Source: a virus
DNA length: 27,255 bases
Virus record (IMG/VR): IMGVR_UViG_3300025648_000072
Span: 1 to 27,255 of that record
Strand: one strand, 5' to 3'
The notes below the pieces were generated by a model. It was not told the origin of the DNA, did not search any database, and saw nothing but the letters and a program-made list of their open reading frames with translations. Positions 907-26,720 of this stretch are shown here, piece by piece (the first letter of the stretch is position 1; each line of letters begins with the position of its first letter). Position numbers and translations under genes: made by a program.

Positions 907-3576
907 TTAAAATGTTCCTCCGGATATACCGACGTATTTTGTTGCAGTGATAGTAGTACCTGTTATGGTATTTGCTGTTGTACCACCGATTGCTGGTGGG
1001 CTAGATAAATCTAATGTGCCGCCAAGTGTTAAGCTACCACTTGATGTTACGGTGCCTGTTAAAGTAATGCCGCTAACTGTACCAGTACCAGATACGCTTG
1101 TCACCGTGCCCTGTGGGTTTGATGCTGTTGTAATCGTAGTTACACGGCCATAAGTATCCACCGTTACAACTGGGATTAGTGTGCTTGAGCCCGTTGTGCC
1201 TGCGGTAACGATACCGCTAGTTAAGTTAACTGTTGGTATAGCAGATGTACCTGCCACCGTTAAGGTAGACGATGTGATTGACGTTACAGTACCCTGTGGG
1301 TTCGATGCCGTAGTAACGCTGGTAACCTGACCCTGCGCATTTGTAGTAATAACAGGAATTAATGTAGCAGATCCGTATGTCCCCGCCGTCCCCGTGTTGG
1401 TAATACTAAACTGTGTGCCTGTTAGGCTTAGTCCTGTACCAGCTGTATATGTGCCCGCGCCAGAGAACTGGACCCAAGTAACTGCTGTAACGCCTAATGT
1501 GCCGCCCGGGTCGCTAGTACAGACCCAGCCTGTATCGCCATTAATTGTTCCTTCTTCGACAAACACATAGGCGGAGACTAACTGATTCCAGGTATTGGCG
1601 TCTGTGGTGCGAGCCCAAGCAGCTGGATTAGATAAATAGATGCCGTTGTTTGCAGGTAGTGTTTGGTTCTTAACCAGCACACGACTAAGTGACGTTGTAA
1701 ACCCATCAATCGTCTGCTCACCAGAAAGTGTAATGTTTGCCGTTGTGGCAACTAGTGCCGGTGCCTTGGTGCTTAACCCCTGCGCTATATTATCAACGTA
1801 CTGCTTGGTTGCTAGTTGTAGTGCGCTTGTTGGGTCTTGTGTTACGGCGACGCTTGTTAGTCCACCAAGTGTAAGGCTTGTTGCACCCAACGCGATGCTT
1901 GTTGTTCCAACGGTTAATGTGCTGTTTGTTAACGAGCTGTTACCAATGTTGCTTAGTGTGTTGCTCGCGCCGCTAATTGTCTTGTTGGTTAATGCCTGTG
2001 AGCCTGTTAGGGTAGCCACGGTGCTATCAATAGCAATAGTAACCGCCGCCGAACCATTGAAGCTGGTACCAGATAAACCCGTACCAATTGTCAACGCATT
2101 TGTTGTGTTGGCTGTTACTGTGGTGCTTCCTCCTAAACTAACCAAGTTACCATTTACTGTGATACTTGAGTTAGTTAACTGGGTGTTTCCAATGCCACTA
2201 AGTGTACCACCGAGTGTCAGGCTACCAGTGCTTGTCACTGTGCCCGTGAGTGTGATGCCATTTACTGTGCCTGTACCTGCGACAGATGTCACAGTGCCCT
2301 GAGGATTTGCGGCTGTTGTTACCGCTGTTACTCTGCCATACGTATCCACAGTGACGACAGGTATTAATGTTGCGGAGCCCGTGGTTCCTGCTGTAACAAT
2401 ACCAGACGAAAGGTTAATTGTTGGTATAGTGCCTGTTCCAGCGATTGTTAAAGTGCTGGAGGTAATACTGGTTACATAGGTACCCGCTGGCTGTTTGTTG
2501 TTAAACGTATTCCAGTCGGTGGATGTTAAATATCCGCTCACCGACGTTGTCGCCGCGGCCATACTAATCGCTGGTGTATTGCCCCCACTACTAACTACGG
2601 GGGCCGTGCCTGTGACGCTGGTCACCGTTCCGCCACTTGATGGCGCTGTATTAGTTACTGTAAAGTTAGGGTAAGTACCCGTAACACTAATGCCTGTGCC
2701 GTTGGTAAATGCTACTGTCTGGTCCGGGGCCGTATTGGTAATGGTCAACGTACCGCTAGAAGTGATTGGACTTCCCGATACGCTAATTCCTGTCCCCGCA
2801 GTGGCGGCCACAGAGGTCACTGTCCCTACACTAATCGAGCCTCCAAGGCTCGTAGCCGTACCGTTGATAGTGATCGCTGAGTTAGCTAACTGTGCGTTTG
2901 TGACGGTGCCACTTAAATCCGTTGTTGGTACCGTTGAACTGGCCGTCATGGCCGACGTGCCATTGCCTTTTACGTAGCCCGTCAGAGTTACCACACCAGT
3001 ACCACCATTAGAAGCATTTAACGTACCACCGAGCACCACAGCGCCAGAGGTTGGTGTGTTTGGTGTAAAGCCCGTCGTGCCGCCACTAAATGTTCCGGTT
3101 GCACCAGGGGCACCCGCTGGTATTCCAAAGTTAAACGTTGCTGCAGAACTACTACCTGAATTTGTTACCGTTGGGGTTGCGCCGTAAGGTAATGTTGTTG
3201 CTGTGCCCGCCGCAATAGTCGCTGCAGTGCCTGTGGCGCCTGTGGGTCCAACTGGGCCCTGAGGTCCGACTACATTACCACAGTCAACAGTGCCACCAGT
3301 GGTGAGTGTCAGTATTAAATGACCTGAGCCATTGATTGTTGCTGAGATATATCCTGGTATTGGGCCAGTCTTTGATGTAGTACCATCACTGTAATAAAAC
3401 ACCAAATAGTTCTGTGCGTCTAGTACGACGTTGGTGATCAACTTGCCGGGGGATACCGCGTTGGCAATCAGGCTAACCTGTACCTGCTTGGTGACGCCCC
3501 TCTGAACCACGACCGTCTGCTCATCCCCTGTTAGGGAGATAGCGACGGGTAGTTGTGTGATACTTTGGTCCGCCAT
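907..3576 (-). CDS. Long repeat-rich tail fibre with collagen-like segment
   Basis: This 889-aa protein is dominated by Thr, Gly, Ser, Val and Asn. Residues 104-117 (GPQGPVGPTGATGT) are collagen-like Gly-X-Y triplets. Residues 368-460 and 764-856 are a near-identical duplicated module containing LIPVVTVDTYGRV and ITLTGTVTS. Residues 581-708, beginning DPTSALQLATKQYVDN and including RVLVKNQTLPANNGIYL and ending WVQFSGAG, match a module widespread in phage tail fibres. The role is probably host adhesion as part of a fibre trimer, inferred from family style. Its ATG overlaps the TAA of the upstream GIY-YIG gene (TAATG) and no clear ribosome site precedes it, so translation is probably coupled. 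A second fibre gene follows immediately. Confidence 0.85.
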   Translation of the reverse strand: MADQSITQLPVAISLTGDEQTVVVQRGVTKQVQVSLIANAVSPGKLITNVVLDAQNYLVFYYSDGTTSKTGPIPGYISATINGSGHLILTLTTGGTVDCGNVVGPQGPVGPTGATGTAATIAAGTATTLPYGATPTVTNSGSSSAATFNFGIPAGAPGATGTFSGGTTGFTPNTPTSGAVVLGGTLNASNGGTGVVTLTGYVKGNGTSAMTASSTVPTTDLSGTVTNAQLANSAITINGTATSLGGSISVGTVTSVAATAGTGISVSGSPITSSGTLTITNTAPDQTVAFTNGTGISVTGTYPNFTVTNTAPSSGGTVTSVTGTAPVVSSGGNTPAISMAAATTSVSGYLTSTDWNTFNNKQPAGTYVTSITSSTLTIAGTGTIPTINLSSGIVTAGTTGSATLIPVVTVDTYGRVTAVTTAANPQGTVTSVAGTGTVNGITLTGTVTSTGSLTLGGTLSGIGNTQLTNSSITVNGNLVSLGGSTTVTANTTNALTIGTGLSGTSFNGSAAVTIAIDSTVATLTGSQALTNKTISGASNTLSNIGNSSLTNSTLTVGTTSIALGATSLTLGGLTSVAVTQDPTSALQLATKQYVDNIAQGLSTKAPALVATTANITLSGEQTIDGFTTSLSRVLVKNQTLPANNGIYLSNPAAWARTTDANTWNQLVSAYVFVEEGTINGDTGWVCTSDPGGTLGVTAVTWVQFSGAGTYTAGTGLSLTGTQFSITNTGTAGTYGSATLIPVITTNAQGQVTSVTTASNPQGTVTSITSSTLTVAGTSAIPTVNLTSGIVTAGTTGSSTLIPVVTVDTYGRVTTITTASNPQGTVTSVSGTGTVSGITLTGTVTSSGSLTLGGTLDLSSPPAIGGTTANTITGTTITATKYVGISGGTF

Positions 3577-4079
3577 TACGCTATTGATCTTTCAAAAGTA
3601 TAGCCTTTGTGTGTTTTTCTTTTTCCAGAAACGCATCTGTAAACGTGACTGTTATCAAAACCAAAAGCCTCTAGTTCTTTATTTCCGACAAACAATTTTT
3701 GTTCCCCGGTTTTTATATTTTTTGCAATAATATTGCCTTTAAAATGTGGATTATTGCTCCCCCATTTTGTTGCTCTAATTTTGTCCTTGGCAGCTTTAGA
3801 CATTTTATATCCAACTAACCCTTCTCCGCCGGAGGTAATATTGGTAAGATTATTGAACTTTTTAAAATGGGCTATTAACAAAATTTCTTCTGCAAGCGCT
3901 TTTTCATTGGTTAAATTATCTGCCAGTATTACAATATTGTAACCGTGCTTATTTACAACATTTTTCCAATATTTGTTTCTTAATCTAGTTTCTTTAGATC
4001 TTCTTTTTAACCCTTTTCCAATATAAAATATTGTTCCATCGGGCTTTGTATGGGCATAAACACAAAATTTATTTATCAT
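3576..4079 (-). CDS. GIY-YIG homing endonuclease (free-standing)
   Basis: This 167-aa protein shows the GIY-YIG fold: VYAHTKPDG (GIY position) and FYIGKG near residues 7-24, then KRRSKETR carrying the likely catalytic Arg, the Glu pair in LAEEILLI, and NITSGGEG near residue 83. After it come a NUMOD3-like stretch (MSKAAKDKIRATKWGSNNP) and a C-terminal NUMOD1-like DNA-binding segment ending GYTFERSIA. Such enzymes cut DNA at unoccupied sites and spread by repair. The gene is visibly more A/T-rich than the structural genes around it. It is joined to both neighbours by overlaps (ATGA upstream, TAATG downstream) and has no Shine-Dalgarno of its own. It is a late insertion into the structural operon (inference). 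Confidence 0.85.
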   Translation of the reverse strand: MINKFCVYAHTKPDGTIFYIGKGLKRRSKETRLRNKYWKNVVNKHGYNIVILADNLTNEKALAEEILLIAHFKKFNNLTNITSGGEGLVGYKMSKAAKDKIRATKWGSNNPHFKGNIIAKNIKTGEQKLFVGNKELEAFGFDNSHVYRCVSGKRKTHKGYTFERSIA

Positions 4080-4699
4080 GTCGTGTAGGTAAACGCCCCG
4101 TACGCTGTGCTGTTACCGAACGGAGAAAATACCTCGACGTTGACGATACCAGTGACGGCATAGGCTGGCGTTACTGCGGTGATAGTGGTGGAGTCAACCA
4201 GACTAAATGTTGCTACTGTGCCACCAAAGCGGACAGTCGCGACATCGGTAAAGTTACTACCATAGATTGTTACATGTGTGCCGCCGGACTTAGTCCCGGT
4301 CGCTGGTGATACTGATCCAACCTTTGGTGCCAGGGTCATTGGTGACGGCACCACGTTGCTCATGGTGTTTAAATCACCCTGAGTATTTGCAGATGGTACG
4401 CCCTCAATAAATAAAGCGTTTTGGTTAGTGAACCCGTTCTCGGTCATAATCTGATTACCACCGATTGGGCCTGTAGCAACGGATACATCAGGACGTGGAA
4501 AGCGTAGTGCAATGTTTTCAGTCTGACGGGCTGGTAGGCGCCATGGATCAAAGTTATCTAAATCTTCCTTGCATACCCGCATCCCAGGGAAGTTGGGATC
4601 GGGCATCAGGTCTACATAGGCGAACTTTCTGCTGCACCGATCACACAGTGCAACAGAAAGTACCGAGTTTCCTCTTGTATCCAAATATACAGGAGGCAT
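4076..4699 (-). CDS. Structural protein with Cys motif and IPT/TIG domain
   Basis: This 207-aa protein has two parts. Residues about 15-55 (ALCDRCSRKF, then PGMRVCKEDLDNFDPWR) form a short Cys-containing motif, CxxC plus one later Cys, of a type seen in many small phage proteins; the usual fourth Cys is an Asp-like position here, so metal binding is uncertain. Residues about 125-207 (VGSVSPATGTKSGGTHVTIYGSNF to the end) are a clear IPT/TIG immunoglobulin-like fold, common in virion surface and tail proteins. The ATG has a GGAGAA ribosome site lying in the end of the upstream GIY-YIG gene. Lying between tail fibre and other structural genes, it is probably a virion component, exact place unknown. 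Confidence 0.7.
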   Translation of the reverse strand: MPPVYLDTRGNSVLSVALCDRCSRKFAYVDLMPDPNFPGMRVCKEDLDNFDPWRLPARQTENIALRFPRPDVSVATGPIGGNQIMTENGFTNQNALFIEGVPSANTQGDLNTMSNVVPSPMTLAPKVGSVSPATGTKSGGTHVTIYGSNFTDVATVRFGGTVATFSLVDSTTITAVTPAYAVTGIVNVEVFSPFGNSTAYGAFTYTT

Positions 4700-5262
4700 T
4701 ATAGTTCTCCGTTTTTATAGCGTTTTTTAAACGTTCTAATATGTATGCCAAAATGCTCAGCTGCTAATTTTTGTGAAATAAATTCTATTCCGTTTACAAA
4801 AACTTTTTTGCCAGGTTTTAGTTTACCAAATTTACTTAAAGCTATTTTATTTTTAGTGTCTTCAGAATGTTGCCAACCATACCCCCTTGTTGCAATTCCT
4901 TTTTTAGTTGCTGCTGTTTTGGCTGCAACAATTGGGTTTCGCATTGGGTTTTCATTGCCAAATTTAACATTTGGCATACCACCACCGGGGGCAATGTTCC
5001 AACCAATTTCTTTTGTGTTTCTTAGTTTTGATTCTATTTCTAAACAATATTCTTTATTGCCTATTAAAATAATATCTTTCACTAAATTATTCCAACCGTA
5101 TTTTTTAACAGCATTTGTTAAAATTGGGTTTATGTGTGTGTTTTGATTAGTTTGTGATTTGTGTTTAGAAAATCTTTTTTCAGTATTATTGGATACACCG
5201 ATATAACCTTGAGTAAACAAGTTATTATGATCTTTATGGTGTATCCAGTATACTTGATACAT
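4699..5262 (-). CDS. GIY-YIG homing endonuclease (second copy)
   Basis: This 187-aa protein begins MYQVYWIHHKDHN and has TQGYIGVSNNTEKRF, the GIY and YIG strands plus the following Arg. ESKLR and WNIAPGGG supply the conserved Glu and Asn regions. A NUMOD3-like stretch (HSEDTKNKIALSKFGKLKPG) and a C-terminal helix-turn-helix-like NUMOD1 segment (ISQKLAAEHFGIHIRTFKKR) follow for DNA binding. It is not a recent duplicate of the other GIY-YIG gene, as the two sequences differ throughout. It is strongly A/T-rich compared with neighbours. Its stop overlaps the ATG of the IPT/TIG gene (TAATG). The upstream ribosome site is weak (AAGGC). It probably acts as a mobile endonuclease targeting an allele of this region. 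Confidence 0.85.
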   Translation of the reverse strand: MYQVYWIHHKDHNNLFTQGYIGVSNNTEKRFSKHKSQTNQNTHINPILTNAVKKYGWNNLVKDIILIGNKEYCLEIESKLRNTKEIGWNIAPGGGMPNVKFGNENPMRNPIVAAKTAATKKGIATRGYGWQHSEDTKNKIALSKFGKLKPGKKVFVNGIEFISQKLAAEHFGIHIRTFKKRYKNGEL

Positions 5263-6676: not shown

Positions 6677-6772
6677 TTGGGTGTTTCCTTATCTTAGTGG
6701 GTATCCCAAGCTGTCTCTAAGTCGTCTCACCGGGAAGTGTCGGCGGTCAGAATGGGATTAATCTTCCTATAC

Positions 6773-6803: not shown

Positions 6804-7274
6804 CTAAACTACGAACTTATTCGATTTTTTGGAGTTGTCTGAGCCAGGGATGACTCTGAGATTGGAAAAGACATGAAGACCTGATACTTTTTTACCCTGC
6901 AGTGGGATAATGTGGTCTACGTGGTATGGCTCGCCAGATGCTTGAGATAGCATATTGGCTAGTTGATACTTGGCTATAATAAGATGTGCGTGGGGGCCCC
7001 AAGTTGGAACTCTTTGCAATAACGCTGCCTGGCGTTTACGTGTACGAGCTAAATGCATTTCTGGGTGCTTTTTGTTGTGAGCATTTGCTCTAGCAATTGA
7101 TGCTGATTTTATATGAGGTTGAGAACCCCATTTTATTTTATCTAATCGTTTGCATTCAACACAGGTTCTATTACTTAATAATTTTTCAGTAATATGGCCA
7201 TGTTTACATGGCTTACCAGTAAAATACCGGGTTAGCTTTTGTTCAATGGCTTGTTGTCTGGAAACTATTTTCAT
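6804..7274 (-). CDS. HNH homing endonuclease with N-terminal Cys/His finger
   Basis: This 156-aa protein has an N-terminal metal-finger-like region (PCKHGHITEK, then RTCVECKRL, residues 22-43). Its C-terminal HNH nuclease motif is YHVDHIIPLQGK (His118, Asp120, His121), then HVFSNLRVIPGSDNSKKSNK with the conserved Asn residues. It sits alone between the capsid gene and a structural gene. It is bounded by copies of the TTTGCATTAATAT element on both sides. Its ATG lies 4 nt after one copy with no Shine-Dalgarno, so it is predicted to be translated from a leaderless mRNA. The role is probably a mobile intergenic endonuclease. Assignment to HNH is firm; the target is unknown. Confidence 0.85.
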   Translation of the reverse strand: MKIVSRQQAIEQKLTRYFTGKPCKHGHITEKLLSNRTCVECKRLDKIKWGSQPHIKSASIARANAHNKKHPEMHLARTRKRQAALLQRVPTWGPHAHLIIAKYQLANMLSQASGEPYHVDHIIPLQGKKVSGLHVFSNLRVIPGSDNSKKSNKFVV

Positions 7275-14343: not shown

Positions 14344-14808
14344 TTATTGGTTTTGTTCTATTGATTTCATCCAGTCTGCTACAGCCTGGATTTCATTGAA
14401 GGAAGCATTGCTTTTAATTGTATTTGCTTTAAAGGATATCCAAGCCACATTACCTTTAATATACCCCAATTTGGGATTAAATTTATCTAAAGACGGAGAG
14501 TTATCTGTGGCCTTACCATTTCTTTCAGTCCAAGATAATGTTATCCCTAAAACGGGGCAAATATCTTGAGCAAGACTAAATGCGTATTCGGAGTCTATTT
14601 CAAACACAACATTTTGTTTTTTAGATTCTGCGCGTCTTTGGTTTATTATTCTGTTTACATGCCCGCGTTTATCTTTCATTTTAGCATCTTTTTTAAAATT
14701 TGTTTGTTTATTTTTACAAATTCTACACCAAGAAGCTAATCCATCTTTTGTATGCTTATGTTTTCCAAAGTTGTCGGATAATAAATCACATTTTGTACAT
14801 TGTTTCAT
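14344..14808 (-). CDS. HNH-type endonuclease with N-terminal zinc finger
   Basis: This 154-aa protein has paired Cys motifs CTKCDLLSDNF and CRICKN (residues 4-32), a probable zinc finger. A Lys/Arg-rich linker follows, then CPVLGITLSW and ATDNSPSLDKFNPKLGYIKGN, with WISFKANTIKS near the end. The last segment matches the phage HNH group in which DNSPSLDR and GYxxGNV surround the catalytic centre. It is A/T-rich relative to the terminase and portal between which it lies. A GGGAG ribosome site and an 84-nt structured leader precede it. It is probably a mobile intergenic endonuclease. Confidence 0.75.
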   Translation of the reverse strand: MKQCTKCDLLSDNFGKHKHTKDGLASWCRICKNKQTNFKKDAKMKDKRGHVNRIINQRRAESKKQNVVFEIDSEYAFSLAQDICPVLGITLSWTERNGKATDNSPSLDKFNPKLGYIKGNVAWISFKANTIKSNASFNEIQAVADWMKSIEQNQ

Positions 14809-14936: not shown

Positions 14937-16382
14937 TTATTGTGAATAAGGGTTAGAAAACTTTCTAGCAGATATGTCATCTGAATAATCATAGTCGCGA
15001 GCAGGAAGGAAATCTAATTGAATCCAACCAGAATCCCTTAATATTCTCAAGGCTTGGGAAAGACTATCAACATAGTCGTCATGGCCTCCGGCTTCTGGAA
15101 ATGAGCACACTTGGCGAAGAAATCGCTTAGCCCACTCGGCAAAGTCACCTTTGATTTTAGAATCTTCTGGTATGTAAACCTTTCCCTTGGCAACGAGGGG
15201 CGCGACAATGTTAAGTCTTTGAACCTTATCAGCACGTTGTGGATTGTAGCCCCTTACAGGCACCCCGGAGCCCTGCAGTTCCTGGATGAGGGATATACCT
15301 GCGCTCTTGTCCTCCATGAGTATCAGGTCGGCTTTACGGCCCTTAGCGAAGGTGTTATCAGATCCGTACACAACTTCTTTGAAGTCATCAATTACTTTAC
15401 GTCGTAGTTGTGGGTACGCAAGGTGTTGGTCCCATGCGTCCAGTAAAATAATGGATGTCCCCTTGTCTTCTTGTTCAAAAATTCCCCATACGGTACATGC
15501 GGTGGGGTCATTCATTGTTTTTTCGGATGTTGCTGGGTCATAGGAGGCAATGACGTACTCTAGCTCGGGGGTTGGTTTGTCTGCGGGCCACATCTTAAAC
15601 ATTTTACGTTTGATGATACCCGTTGCTTCGGGGTCAAGGATCTGTCCATAGATCTCCTGCCTTCCAATATCTGTTCCCTCATACGTCTCTAGCTGCTTGA
15701 AGAATGTCTCTGATAGGTTGTCCCGGTTGTCGTATGATGAGGCATTGACGACGTAGACATCCCCTCCGACCTTACCCTCGTTGAGGTCAACGATGAGCTC
15801 TTTAGGTTTTGGGGTGGTGGTAATAATTTGCTGCACCCTGGGGATTCTGGGGTCTTTGAGTCGGAGGGTAAACTGGACGCCGTCGTAGGCTTGGTCAAGG
15901 TAGTCAAAGGCGCAGAGCTCGTCAAACCAGGCGCCATGGAACTGCTTGCCGCGGTAGCGCTCCGGCTCGGAGGCGGGGATGCCTTGAATGATGGATCCGT
16001 TGGTGAGGGTGATCTCAAACAGGGATTTGTTGTAGTCTTTGATGAGGCTGGCGGGGATGATGTTGAGGAGTCCTGAGTCTCCCTCGAAGCAGGTAGCCCG
16101 AATATCATTTGAAGTGGGTGCCGTGACAAGCCAGCGGGTTCCGCTGTACTTCCAAGCACGAATACCAATCCAATGACTAGCAGTGTGTGTCTTGCCAGAG
16201 CCGCGGCCGGCAAGCATAAGGAATGTATCATACTCTCCATCTTCTGGTTCTTTTTGGTGTGGTAGTGCCTGCAGGGACCATTTGACTTGCCACAGTGTGG
16301 AGTCTAGCTGTTGCTTGGGCCAGTGTTTATGGGCATCTGCGAATTTACTTAACGTAACTTCTTGTTTTTGTGTTAAAGACAT
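14937..16382 (-). CDS. Terminase large subunit
   Basis: This 481-aa DNA-packaging motor has its ATPase domain in the N-terminal half. Walker A is AGRGSGKT (58-65), Walker B is GAWFDE (150-155), and ITTTPKP (187-193) is the coupling motif. The RNase H-like nuclease domain follows with acidic residues in ASYDPATS (Asp282), LILMEDKS (Glu357/Asp358) and GGHDDYVDSLSQALR (Asp435/436/439). Length is normal. It cuts concatemers and pumps DNA through the portal. The ribosome site GGGGAAGG lies in the end of the upstream Hint gene, whose stop overlaps this start by 10 nt. No intein interrupts the P-loop here. Confidence 0.95.
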   Translation of the reverse strand: MSLTQKQEVTLSKFADAHKHWPKQQLDSTLWQVKWSLQALPHQKEPEDGEYDTFLMLAGRGSGKTHTASHWIGIRAWKYSGTRWLVTAPTSNDIRATCFEGDSGLLNIIPASLIKDYNKSLFEITLTNGSIIQGIPASEPERYRGKQFHGAWFDELCAFDYLDQAYDGVQFTLRLKDPRIPRVQQIITTTPKPKELIVDLNEGKVGGDVYVVNASSYDNRDNLSETFFKQLETYEGTDIGRQEIYGQILDPEATGIIKRKMFKMWPADKPTPELEYVIASYDPATSEKTMNDPTACTVWGIFEQEDKGTSIILLDAWDQHLAYPQLRRKVIDDFKEVVYGSDNTFAKGRKADLILMEDKSAGISLIQELQGSGVPVRGYNPQRADKVQRLNIVAPLVAKGKVYIPEDSKIKGDFAEWAKRFLRQVCSFPEAGGHDDYVDSLSQALRILRDSGWIQLDFLPARDYDYSDDISARKFSNPYSQ

Positions 16383-22734: not shown

Positions 22735-22895
22735 AGATATTTGGATTCTTAATGATTATATTCGCGTGGGCGGAGCTCGATAAGAGCTTTCAATTCTCAG
22801 AGCTTATTTGGCTTATCTTGGGTATTGCCATTGTGATGTACGAGGAGATACTAGCGCGTGTTGAGATTTTGTTTAGGAGAAACCACAATGAGTGA
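22731..22895 (+). CDS. 54-aa membrane protein with TTG start
   Basis: A frame from TTG at 22731 reads (M)KIFGFLMIIFAWAELDKSF, then FSELIWLILGIAIVMYEEIL, ending RRNHNE. It has two hydrophobic stretches with a charged loop between and a basic end. AGAGG lies at good spacing before the TTG, and TTGA couples it to the previous stop. It overlaps the sigma factor start by 8 nt. A later ATG at residue 8 would lose half of the first helix. Confidence 0.5.
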   Translation: MKIFGFLMIIFAWAELDKSFQFSELIWLILGIAIVMYEEILARVEILFRRNHNE

Positions 22896-23469
22896 CAACA
22901 ACGACATCAAGTCAGACTACCTGCAAGAGCTCTTACGCATGGATATCTCTAAGCTACCAATGGAGTACGAGCACGAGCTCGGGCGTCGTATTGCCAAGGG
23001 TGACGAGGAGGCGTTCAATGAGCTGGTGACGCACAACCTCAGACTGGTGCCGTACATGGTATCCTCCAAGATGACGGCGTGGCACCACGGCAAGACACCG
23101 CTCGAGGACTTGATTGGCATGGGCAACGAGGCGTTACTATTAGCGGCACGTAGCTGGAAACCAACCAAGAGCGTACGATTCTCTAGCTACGCCTGCGCAT
23201 TTATCAGGCGGTTTGTACTGCGTGAGCTCAACAACACCTCAAACATTATCCGACTGCCGGTCAACATCATGCTGAACATCAAGAAGATGAAGTACGAGGA
23301 GCGTGTACTGTCTCAGTTACTGGGACGTGAGCCAACAGTGACCGAGCTATCTGCCATACTTGACATCAGTGTATCAAGGGTGCACCAGCTTAGGGGGTAC
23401 ATCAGCCGTGAGCCAGTATCATTGGACTCACTTGAAAATGAGAAGTTCTTAGAAGAAAATGAGGAGTAA
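22888..23469 (+). CDS. Sigma-70 family factor lacking region 4
   Basis: This 193-aa protein starts MSDNNDIKSDYLQELLRMDI. The ATG at 22888 follows TAGGAGA; the longer frame has no such site. Region 1.2 is at residues 11-42 (LGRRIAKGDEEAFNEL). Region 2 is at 43-118 (HNLRLVPYMVSSKM, PLEDLIGMGNEALLLAARSW, SVRFSSYACAFIRRFVLREL). Region 3 follows at 119-185 (NIIRLPVN, EPTVTELSAILDISVSRVHQ, PVSLDSLE). The protein ends without region 4, the part that reads the -35 box. It should therefore direct host RNA polymerase to promoters recognised by the -10 area alone. It is placed to switch on the TTTGCATTAATAT promoters (inference). Confidence 0.85.
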   Translation: MSDNNDIKSDYLQELLRMDISKLPMEYEHELGRRIAKGDEEAFNELVTHNLRLVPYMVSSKMTAWHHGKTPLEDLIGMGNEALLLAARSWKPTKSVRFSSYACAFIRRFVLRELNNTSNIIRLPVNIMLNIKKMKYEERVLSQLLGREPTVTELSAILDISVSRVHQLRGYISREPVSLDSLENEKFLEENEE

Positions 23470-24149: not shown

Positions 24150-24268
24150 TTGTATGGGTAGTATGGGTAGTACGGGTATAAACGCACTTTACCCACTACT
24201 ACGTTTTTATTTTTTTAAAAATATTAAAAATGATAAAGTAAGGGGTACTACCCATACTACCCATACAA
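24150..24268. repeat. AT-rich block bounded by a 24-bp perfect inverted repeat, copy B
   Basis: Positions 24150-24173 and 24245-24268 are perfect reverse complements over 24 bp, built of two TATGGGTAGTA-type units on each side, with a third partial unit at 24173-24178. The 71-nt centre is AT-rich (24201-24240) and nearly identical to block A. The block sits before the primase-helicase gene. Candidate replication origin or binding site for a replication or partition protein; function is inferred. Confidence 0.65.
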
Positions 24269-24310
24269 ATCTAGTGGTTGACCACTGGAAAAACACTACA
24301 TCTAGTAGTT

Positions 24311-24340
24311 AGGGTTTACCCTAATAGGGTTTACCCTAAT
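24311..24340. promoter_or_regulatory. Tandem 15-bp palindromic repeats
   Basis: AGGGTTTACCCTAAT occurs twice in perfect tandem (24311-24325 and 24326-24340). Each copy holds the palindrome AGGGT-TT-ACCCT. The 15-bp period is near one and a half helical turns. Likely a cooperative repressor or activator site controlling the primase-helicase gene. Confidence 0.55.
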
Positions 24341-24387
24341 ACAATTTACACCATATTTCACATTATGAAACCACAAATACCCTAGTT

Positions 24388-24400
24388 TTTGCATTTATAT
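24388..24400 (+). promoter_or_regulatory. Plus-strand copy of the repeated element (TTTGCATTTATAT)
   Basis: It matches the minus-strand element with one change (A to T at position 9) and is followed by AGGTAAGAAG, similar to the downstream sequence at copies 1 and 4. It ends 19 nt before the primase-helicase ATG, with an AAAGGA ribosome site between. Confidence 0.5.
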
Positions 24401-24419
24401 AGGTAAGAAGAAAGGAACT

Positions 24420-26720
24420 ATGAAGCCAACAACATTACCCGTCCTGACACACAATATCCCCACCACACTCAAAAAGGTGCCGAGGTGGGTGATGTGGTCG
24501 TTCGTGGAGGTAGGCGAGGGAGACAACAAGAGATGGTCAAAAATGCCACTACAGACCAATGGCAGACCGGCCTCATCGACCAACCCCGAGACATGGACAG
24601 ACTTCCTTGCGGTTGAGGAGGCATACACGACAGATAAGTTCTCAGGTATTGGGTTTGTCTTCTCAAAGGACGACGACCTAGTGGGCATCGACCTAGATGA
24701 CTGCTACGACCACACCATTGAGGGATTCACCAATCAGGCAATGCAGGATCTAGCCAACACAGTCGATGGTTACATGGAGATCAGCCCATCGGGGACAGGG
24801 GTAAAGATTTTCACACGCTCCTCCCTGTTTGCATCACACGCAGATCACGCCATTGGGTTTGAGGCATACAGTACCGGACGATTCTTCACAGTCACAGGGC
24901 ACCACCTATCAGGCACCATACCAACAACACCACAAGACCTGACCTCTGTCATCCCCGAGCGCACACTAAGACACACCGGCGACGCGTTTGGTGACTACAC
25001 ACCACCCGTGGAGGACTGGGATATTAGCCGCGTCGAGACGGAATTACTCACCCAGTTAGACCCGAACTGTGGTTACCATGAGTGGCTTAAGGTCGGCGCC
25101 ATACTGCACCACCAGTTTGGCGGTGATGTGGAGGCCTGTGAGGCGTGGGATCGCTGGTCAGCAACGGGCTCATCCTACACCTCAACGGGTGACTACTCAT
25201 GCGAGAACAAGTGGAGGACATTTAAGGGATCGGGTGCCACACTGCGCTCATTGATTTTCCAAGTGAACCAGCGGGTACGCACGCAGGCACTCGCCAAGGG
25301 AGACATCATCCTAGACGCTGGCACCATGAACCACGCCCGTACATTCTTAGATAACTATTACTCCTCTGAGGAGGGCTATAAGCTGGTGCACTACGCCGAC
25401 GACTTTTATATCCACGTAGGCACACACTACGAGGTCATCGAGGAGGCCACCATACGGGCAAGGGTGTACACCTTCCTAGATAAGTGCAAGAAGGCCGGCA
25501 AACAGGGCGCTCTCGCACCATTTAACCCATCACCGGCCTCAGTATCGGGCGCGTTAGACGCGGTCAAGTCGATTGTCCACCTACCTAACCACCCAAACAC
25601 CAAGCCACCCATTTGGTTGGAGGACTACGCACGCACCAAGCCTGAGGCCTCAAAGCTGGTCAGCCTGATGAATGGGTTGTTTCACTTAGAGGACTCGATA
25701 CTGATACCGCACTCACTGGGTTTCTTTACACAGAACTCGTTGCCCTTTGAGTACAACCCACTAGCCACAAGCCCAACGTGGGAGGCGTTCTTGCAGTCTA
25801 TATGGCCTGATGACCAAGAGTCTATCGACCTACTGCAGGAGATGTTTGGTTATATCCTGTCGGGTGATACAAGACAGCAGAAGTTTTTTAACGTGATTGG
25901 TCCTCGCAGATCCGGCAAGGGGACGATCAACAAGGTGCTAGTGGCACTGCTTGGACAGCACAACACAGTCGCGCCAGAACTAGGAGAACTTTGTGATACT
26001 TTTGGCCTGCAACCTTGGCTGGGTAAGCTACTCGCTTCTTTCACAGACGCCCGTGCCCCTGAGCGTAACCGCAGTGCTGTTGTCTCTCAACTCCTTAGAA
26101 TTGTTGGCGGCGACACTATTACAGTCAATAGAAAGAACAAGGAGAGCTGGAACGGATACCTACCAACGCGATTAGTAATCTACTCCAATGAGGTACTACA
26201 GCTAACTGAGAACTCTAACGCGCTTACCGGACGTATGCTGGTGCTTAAGATGACCAAGTCATTCTTTAACAAGGAGGACACAGACCTATCACACAAGCTA
26301 GAGCAAGAACTTTCCGGCGTCTTTAACTGGGCAATGGCTGGACTTAAGCGACGCATTGCAAGGGGCGGTCACTTTGTACAGCCTGAGTCAGGTAGGGAGT
26401 ACTTAGACCTTATGGCTGAGCTGGGCAATCCTATTGGCTCTTTTGTTGAGGACGCATTGATCTTTGAGGCGTCAGCAGTGGTAAGTAAGGATGATGTATT
26501 CTCGGCGTACAAGCACTGGGCCCTTAAGAAGTCAATGGCCCCAGGAACCGAGCAGGCATTTAAGAGACGTTTCTTAGCCGCGACACAGGAGAACTGTGTC
26601 AAGTCAGACCTGATACGCACCAATGGTGAGAGATCACACGTATACATGGGTGTTAAGTTTAATGACAAGGCACAGAAATATATTGACTCAATAGAAACAT
26701 TTGATGAAGGAATTTTTTAA
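24420..26720 (+). CDS. AEP primase (PrimPol)-SF3 helicase fusion
   Basis: This 766-aa replication protein has three parts. Residues about 1-190 are an archaeo-eukaryotic type primase-polymerase with metal-binding GIDLDD (Asp91, Asp93), SPSGTGVKIF (122-131) and EAYSTGRFFTVTG (148-160). Residues about 195-285 match PriCT-2 (GYHEWLKVGAILHHQF, CENKWRTFKG). Residues about 290-680 are a D5/P4-type SF3 helicase: Walker A GPRRSGKG (494-501), Walker B region LLASFTDAR (537-545) and motif C RLVIYSNE (584-591). It would open DNA and make primers, perhaps at the AT-rich block upstream. In motif II the His usual in many AEPs is Lys. An AAAGGA site precedes the ATG. Confidence 0.9.
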   Translation: MKPTTLPVLTHNIPTTLKKVPRWVMWSFVEVGEGDNKRWSKMPLQTNGRPASSTNPETWTDFLAVEEAYTTDKFSGIGFVFSKDDDLVGIDLDDCYDHTIEGFTNQAMQDLANTVDGYMEISPSGTGVKIFTRSSLFASHADHAIGFEAYSTGRFFTVTGHHLSGTIPTTPQDLTSVIPERTLRHTGDAFGDYTPPVEDWDISRVETELLTQLDPNCGYHEWLKVGAILHHQFGGDVEACEAWDRWSATGSSYTSTGDYSCENKWRTFKGSGATLRSLIFQVNQRVRTQALAKGDIILDAGTMNHARTFLDNYYSSEEGYKLVHYADDFYIHVGTHYEVIEEATIRARVYTFLDKCKKAGKQGALAPFNPSPASVSGALDAVKSIVHLPNHPNTKPPIWLEDYARTKPEASKLVSLMNGLFHLEDSILIPHSLGFFTQNSLPFEYNPLATSPTWEAFLQSIWPDDQESIDLLQEMFGYILSGDTRQQKFFNVIGPRRSGKGTINKVLVALLGQHNTVAPELGELCDTFGLQPWLGKLLASFTDARAPERNRSAVVSQLLRIVGGDTITVNRKNKESWNGYLPTRLVIYSNEVLQLTENSNALTGRMLVLKMTKSFFNKEDTDLSHKLEQELSGVFNWAMAGLKRRIARGGHFVQPESGREYLDLMAELGNPIGSFVEDALIFEASAVVSKDDVFSAYKHWALKKSMAPGTEQAFKRRFLAATQENCVKSDLIRTNGERSHVYMGVKFNDKAQKYIDSIETFDEGIF

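Follow-up and report, generated by a model that had tools for sequence, protein, structure and literature searches.

The window analysed here, the whole 27,255 nucleotides of IMG/VR virus record IMGVR_UViG_3300025648_000072, is a 27-kb virus fragment in which terminase, portal and capsid genes face leftward, and small genes, a gene for a sigma-70-like protein and a primase-helicase gene are read rightward. Two blocks of short mirrored repeats are set into this arrangement, block A in the divergent region and block B ahead of the primase-helicase gene (Table 1), and both are considered here as a putative replication origin system. The 24-nt arms of block B are 100% complementary and lie 71 nt apart, exactly the perfect 24-bp inverted repeat that an initial annotation of this DNA had described, whereas in 100 windows simulated with an order-1 model the longest perfect inverted repeat spanning up to 200 bp averaged 11.1 bp and reached at most 16. 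As a single strand, block B is predicted to fold with −32 kcal/mol, compared with −11.4 kcal/mol for shuffled sequences (z = −8). Both arms are built from a 9-bp iteron, NGTAYGGGT, and the two sets of iterons are mirrored about an AT-rich core. The same annotation had counted two units per side and a third, incomplete one, which is correct, the third unit on the left being in fact almost complete; it had also placed the block about 150 bp ahead of the gene for a D5-type protein, and the distance from the end of block B to the ATG is 151 bp. Block A is made of the same units with shorter arms, as had been noted (13 perfect positions as opposed to 24), and over its right 78 bp it shares 90% identity with block B.

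The profile matches of the primase-helicase include 7ola (E 6e-41) and a second primase entry, which we take to be the SaPI5 primase-helicase and the NrS-1 primase, respectively. The full-length AlphaFold model is poor, with a predicted local distance difference test score (pLDDT) of 64, and the C-terminal domain alone was used for structural comparison; the closest structures found by Foldseek are the DNA-binding domains of RFX5 and RFX1. The C-terminus is a predicted winged helix and is proposed as a candidate binder of the iterons.

Table 1. Features of the two repeat blocks, their surroundings and the primase-helicase gene in the window.
Feature	Position	Strand	Description
Block A	about 17710..17829		Second copy with the iterons of block B; structural genes on one side read leftward, small genes on the other rightward
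Block B, left arm	24150..24173	+	Iterons TGTATGGGT (24151-24159) and AGTATGGGT (24160-24168), third unit AGTACGGGT (24169-24177); read directly
Block B, AT-rich core	24204..24241		TTTTTATTTTTTTAAAAATATTAAAAATGATAAAGTAA; proposed melting site, PICI origins being arranged likewise
Block B, right arm	24245..24268	-	Mirrored iterons ACCCATACT (24250-24258) and ACCCATACA (24259-24267), partial third unit (AGTAC only)
Palindrome, two copies	24309..24339		TAGGGTTTACCCTA; between block B and the helicase gene, possible operators
Palindrome	24356..24370		TTTCACATTATGAAA; recurs near blocks in relatives
Promoter-like element	24388..24401	+	TTTGCATTTATATA; ahead of the primase-helicase gene, putative promoter
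Primase-helicase	24420..26720	+	AEP-type primase and superfamily 3 (SF3) helicase, 766 aa; PriCT_2, D5_N, DUF5906, Pox_D5
C-terminal winged-helix domain	26430..26669	+	About aa 671-750, proposed iteron-binding; Pox_D5 match, AF2 pLDDT 87, Foldseek

A protein search of IMG/VR with the primase-helicase yielded 46 loci, 40 of which include DNA upstream of the helicase gene, and in nearly all of these 40 the block is retained 5′ of the gene. Most relatives with enough sequence carry a second block 5.1–8.3 kb upstream, so that the usual layout is a pair with one block beside the helicase and the other far upstream, and each of three relatives with end repeats (65.9, 64.1 and 64.8 kb) contains exactly two copies. 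The block is also present in a beta-proteobacterial contig from a metagenome-assembled genome (L049). The orientation of the pair, direct or inverted, varies by lineage, as might be seen if A and B were recombination or resolution sites around a small-gene module able to invert or move; the block is, however, quasi-palindromic, so its orientation is hardly informative, no recombinase is associated with it, the complete-looking relatives hold exactly two copies at fixed places, and the nearest neighbours of blocks found independently of any gene (below) are helicases. We regard sites of this type as very improbable.

IMG/VR was also scanned for the block itself, blind to genes, by requiring two GGGT-type iterons, then a gap of 60–90 bp and the mirror image of the pair, which returned more than 100 stretches. 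A D5 helicase homologue is encoded within 600 bp of 35 of the 82 sites that had not previously been reached through the helicase, and among the sites flanked on either side by 1.5 kb or more the proportion is 25 of 45, compared with 15% at random positions. The genes adjoining further sites matched the Pfam domains DUF5906, D5_N (SF3), VapE-like and Toprim_3 primase. Rather than standing beside unrelated genes only, a result that would have spoken against the origin proposal, the block thus recurs beside D5/SF3 helicases. Many of these helicases are just 21–32% identical to that of the window, and in these distant phages the block sits at the 3′ end of the helicase gene, as in Staphylococcus aureus pathogenicity islands (SaPIs); many of the sites without a helicase resemble the distant A copy of the window's family. 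In blocks beside such distant helicases (L118, L122, L133, L141, L144 and similar) the core is not AT-rich and contains alternating runs such as ACGCGCGCG. Among named phages no direct DNA similarity to block B was found. Reading of intergenic DNA by eye identified four phages with a D5 primase in which short repeats are mirrored about AT-rich DNA: Proteus RS10pmA (repeat GTTTCACTT), the only one of the four also recovered by a stricter automatic scan, Flyfo Tbat2_2 and Morganella Henu15 (both GTTGCAGTT), and Marinobacter PS6 (TTGTCCCCT, directly after the primase gene). For Bordetella phage BIP-1, the stem-loop of which is described in PMC4234260, a scan of the fetched region gave no block.

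Comparison of the blocks indicates that their sequences vary in concert. The iteron unit differs across genomes (TATGGGTAG, CTAGGGTTG, CACAGGTTG, CGGGGGTTG and others), but in any one genome the two arms agree, as do blocks A and B. The best A-to-B match over 18-mers is 17.75 of 18 for blocks of one genome and 13.2 for blocks of different genomes, with p = 1e-5 in a permutation test that ignores phylogeny. The cores follow the same trend, matching at 0.79 within versus 0.67 between genomes, though the effect is weaker than for the arms (0.88 versus 0.66). When the two arms of a block are compared, identity is 22.1 of 27 positions in mirror register, a value somewhat inflated by selection of the best register, falling to 16.5 at a shift of one unit and to 8.0 at other shifts; the blocks therefore combine a 9-bp period with a mirror symmetry that exceeds it. 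Irregular units are mirrored exactly in four relatives (L024, L028, L036 and L037), and there the choice of register is not the explanation. Symmetry beyond what iterons need, these mirrored irregular units and the strong predicted fold of block B would also suit an element that acts as a folded single strand, either in the transcript, as an RNA hairpin or attenuator, or as DNA, where a hairpin could serve packaging or the initiation of single-strand synthesis, and the origins of pRN1 require an intact stem-loop (PMC4234260). A pure hairpin, however, leaves the 9-bp period and the identity of A and B unexplained, the in-register score is the inflated one, and hairpin formation fits an origin as well; a search of Rfam for an RNA element gave no family match. 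We consider a folded strand improbable as the primary function.

The organisation was compared with that of known systems. In phage-inducible chromosomal islands (PICIs), two iteron sets flank an AT-rich region and support plasmid replication (PMC6092414), and the window shares with PICIs and SaPIs the placement of iteron sets about an AT-rich core next to the gene of the initiator helicase. Unlike the PICI origin, which is 3′ of rep, block B is 5′ of the gene (3′ in the more distant phages), it is duplicated 5–8 kb away, and it belongs to a large tailed phage with terminase, portal and capsid and with relatives of 64–66 kb, whereas PICIs are small satellites. The C-terminal domains of SaPI Rep and of Cch2 bind iterons (PMC7581432), the corresponding domain here being a predicted winged helix. 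Cch2 of SCCmec is likewise a D5_N-type helicase with a C-terminal domain that binds short direct repeats, but direct repeats suffice for binding in that system and deletion of the inverted repeats has no effect (PMC7581432).

The closest parallel for two sites is found in P4, for which the layout was taken from the genome record: crr lies beside alpha, ori is about 4.7 kb away and type-1 repeats are common to both, so that, as here, two separate sites share repeats and one of them adjoins the initiator gene. The crr units are about 120 bp long with inverted repeats at 9-bp spacing about a T-rich core, and the scan that detects the present blocks also detects P4 crr. The SF3 helicases are homologous (E 9e-16), and the origin-binding domain of P4 gp-alpha is an RFX1-like winged helix (PMC10516667). 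The systems differ in that alpha has a Toprim primase, whereas the primase here is of the AEP type (NrS-1 and SaPI5 matches), and in that P4 ori is asymmetric and crr, located 3′ of the gene, consists of a tandem pair. The pRN1 protein ORF904 combines an AEP primase, an SF3 helicase and a C-terminal winged helix, a combination also predicted for the window, and its origin is a stem-loop of about 100 bp (21-nt stem, 58-nt loop) that must be intact (PMC4234260). Its stem is kept while the sequence varies (PMC4234260), and this variation about a kept stem is seen in the blocks too; the pRN1 origin, however, lacks iterons, is single and lies 3′ of the gene.

On account of the anatomy of block B, its retention in relatives, its recurrence beside D5/SF3 helicases, the match between A and B, the predicted winged helix and the layouts of P4, PICIs and pRN1, we interpret blocks B and A as a cis-acting origin system of the phage that would be bound by the neighbouring primase-helicase, with a probability of just under 0.8. 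Block B very probably serves as an origin of replication or as a site acting in cis in replication, and in either case its general kind is known; what is new is its setting in a large phage and the paired, concerted arrangement. In the mechanism that we propose, the C-terminal winged helix would bind the 9-bp iterons, the SF3 domains would form oppositely oriented assemblies on the mirrored iteron sets and melt the AT-rich core lying between them, and the AEP domain would prime both forks, giving bidirectional initiation. Block A may be a second origin or a partner required in cis, like crr and ori of P4, and would probably be brought to B through protein bridging, the allocation of roles to the two blocks being inferred. 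The relatives, the block-first scan and the layouts of known systems thus support one part of the proposal in the initial annotation, that of an element of origin type belonging with the D5 helicase beside it. The annotation's further idea of a replicon-like module bracketed by A and B is unsupported, because in P4 a single replicon can be served by two sites of this sort, and the stretch between A and B is internal to one genome in the three relatives of 64–66 kb; nor does an origin paired with a terminus find support, since A and B carry identical iterons.

Several observations weigh against an origin bound by this helicase. One lineage (L029, L030, L031 and L044) has the helicase, at 63% identity, and no block in the sequence scanned, and L036 has the distant copy only and none beside the helicase; the case of a shared helicase without the block, named at the outset as one that would tell against the proposal, is therefore found in these genomes and not in nearly all others. 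The GC-skew minimum lies between A and B in two of the three complete-looking relatives, where gene direction confounds this only suggestive marker of an origin. Neither the distance between whole helicases nor that between their C-terminal domains correlated significantly with iteron distance (Mantel p 0.15, partial p 0.08), and no coevolution of iterons and initiator was detected. Sigma-factor distance showed no significant correlation with the iterons either; of 14 small-protein clusters tested, two correlated at p 0.01–0.02. Finally, promoter-like elements near the blocks leave room for an operator role.

In such a role A and B would form a paired operator like lambda OL/OR, a regulator binding the repeats at the divergent early/late region and at the replication operon, looping the DNA and switching transcription. 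The position of A between divergent genes and of B ahead of the helicase would fit this, as would the promoter-like TTTGCATTARTATA elements that adjoin both blocks and the many further palindromes nearby. However, the block-bearing genomes examined have only the helicase and the sigma-like factor in common and share no repressor, genomes of the L024/L028 type have the block some 30 bp ahead of the helicase gene and lack this promoter-like element there, and its location at the 3′ end of the helicase gene in distant phages is a poor fit for an operator. We judge a paired operator unlikely.

The flanking DNA of the putative origin system holds further elements. The TTTGCATTTATATA/TTTGCATTANTATA element also occurs on the minus strand at 6772, 7278, 11236, 14892 and 17643; there are seven matches in all, versus 1.2 expected. 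TTTGCATTANTATA, which lies ahead of genes on both strands, is a candidate promoter for the phage sigma factor. The sigma-70-like protein (22888-23469), found in 25 of 25 genomes compared, matches regions 2 and 3 and not region 4, and could target promoters that lack a −35 element. In the relatives read, palindrome TAGGGTTTACCCTA was seen only in the near-identical L001 and L002. The motif ATCAANNACTTA occurs 28 times in the relatives' loci that were scanned, and 27 of these sites, versus about one expected, lie no more than 150 bp from a block, at fixed distances outside the arms; it falls within what we take to be the consensus of integration host factor (IHF), WATCAANNNNTTR. Fur-box-like TGATAATNATTATCA-type palindromes and TTTCACANNGTGAAA palindromes are also enriched near blocks in relatives, and in several genomes, such as L011, L014 and L040, ATCAANNACTTA and the Fur-box-like palindromes are spaced constantly outside the iteron arms. 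These boxes resemble host-protein sites in sequence; the window itself has neither ATCAANNACTTA nor TGATAATNATTATCA-like palindromes. To the right of block A, non-coding DNA (18098-18284) contains three repeats with the palindrome GCACCANNNTGGTGC.

More tentatively, the blocks may represent a widespread and previously undescribed class of phage origin, made of paired mirrored iteron-hairpins that evolve in concert within each genome, in which the symmetry itself is kept, IHF- and Fur-like boxes stand at fixed distances and the two sites act as one replication switch. The organisation known from phage satellites appears here in a family of large freshwater tailed phages and, in a search begun from the DNA element only, beside many distant D5-type helicases. 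The block would provide a sequence rule for locating origins in uncultured phages, and the natural series of iteron variants could be used to study origin recognition by SF3 initiators and the need of P4-like systems for two sites.

Elsewhere in the window, the region beside the terminase gene (16373-17365) gives a weak LAGLIDADG match that may reflect an intein or a homing gene. Four open reading frames among the structural genes (3576-4079, 4699-5262, 6804-7274 and 14344-14808) resemble GIY-YIG or HNH homing endonucleases by eye.
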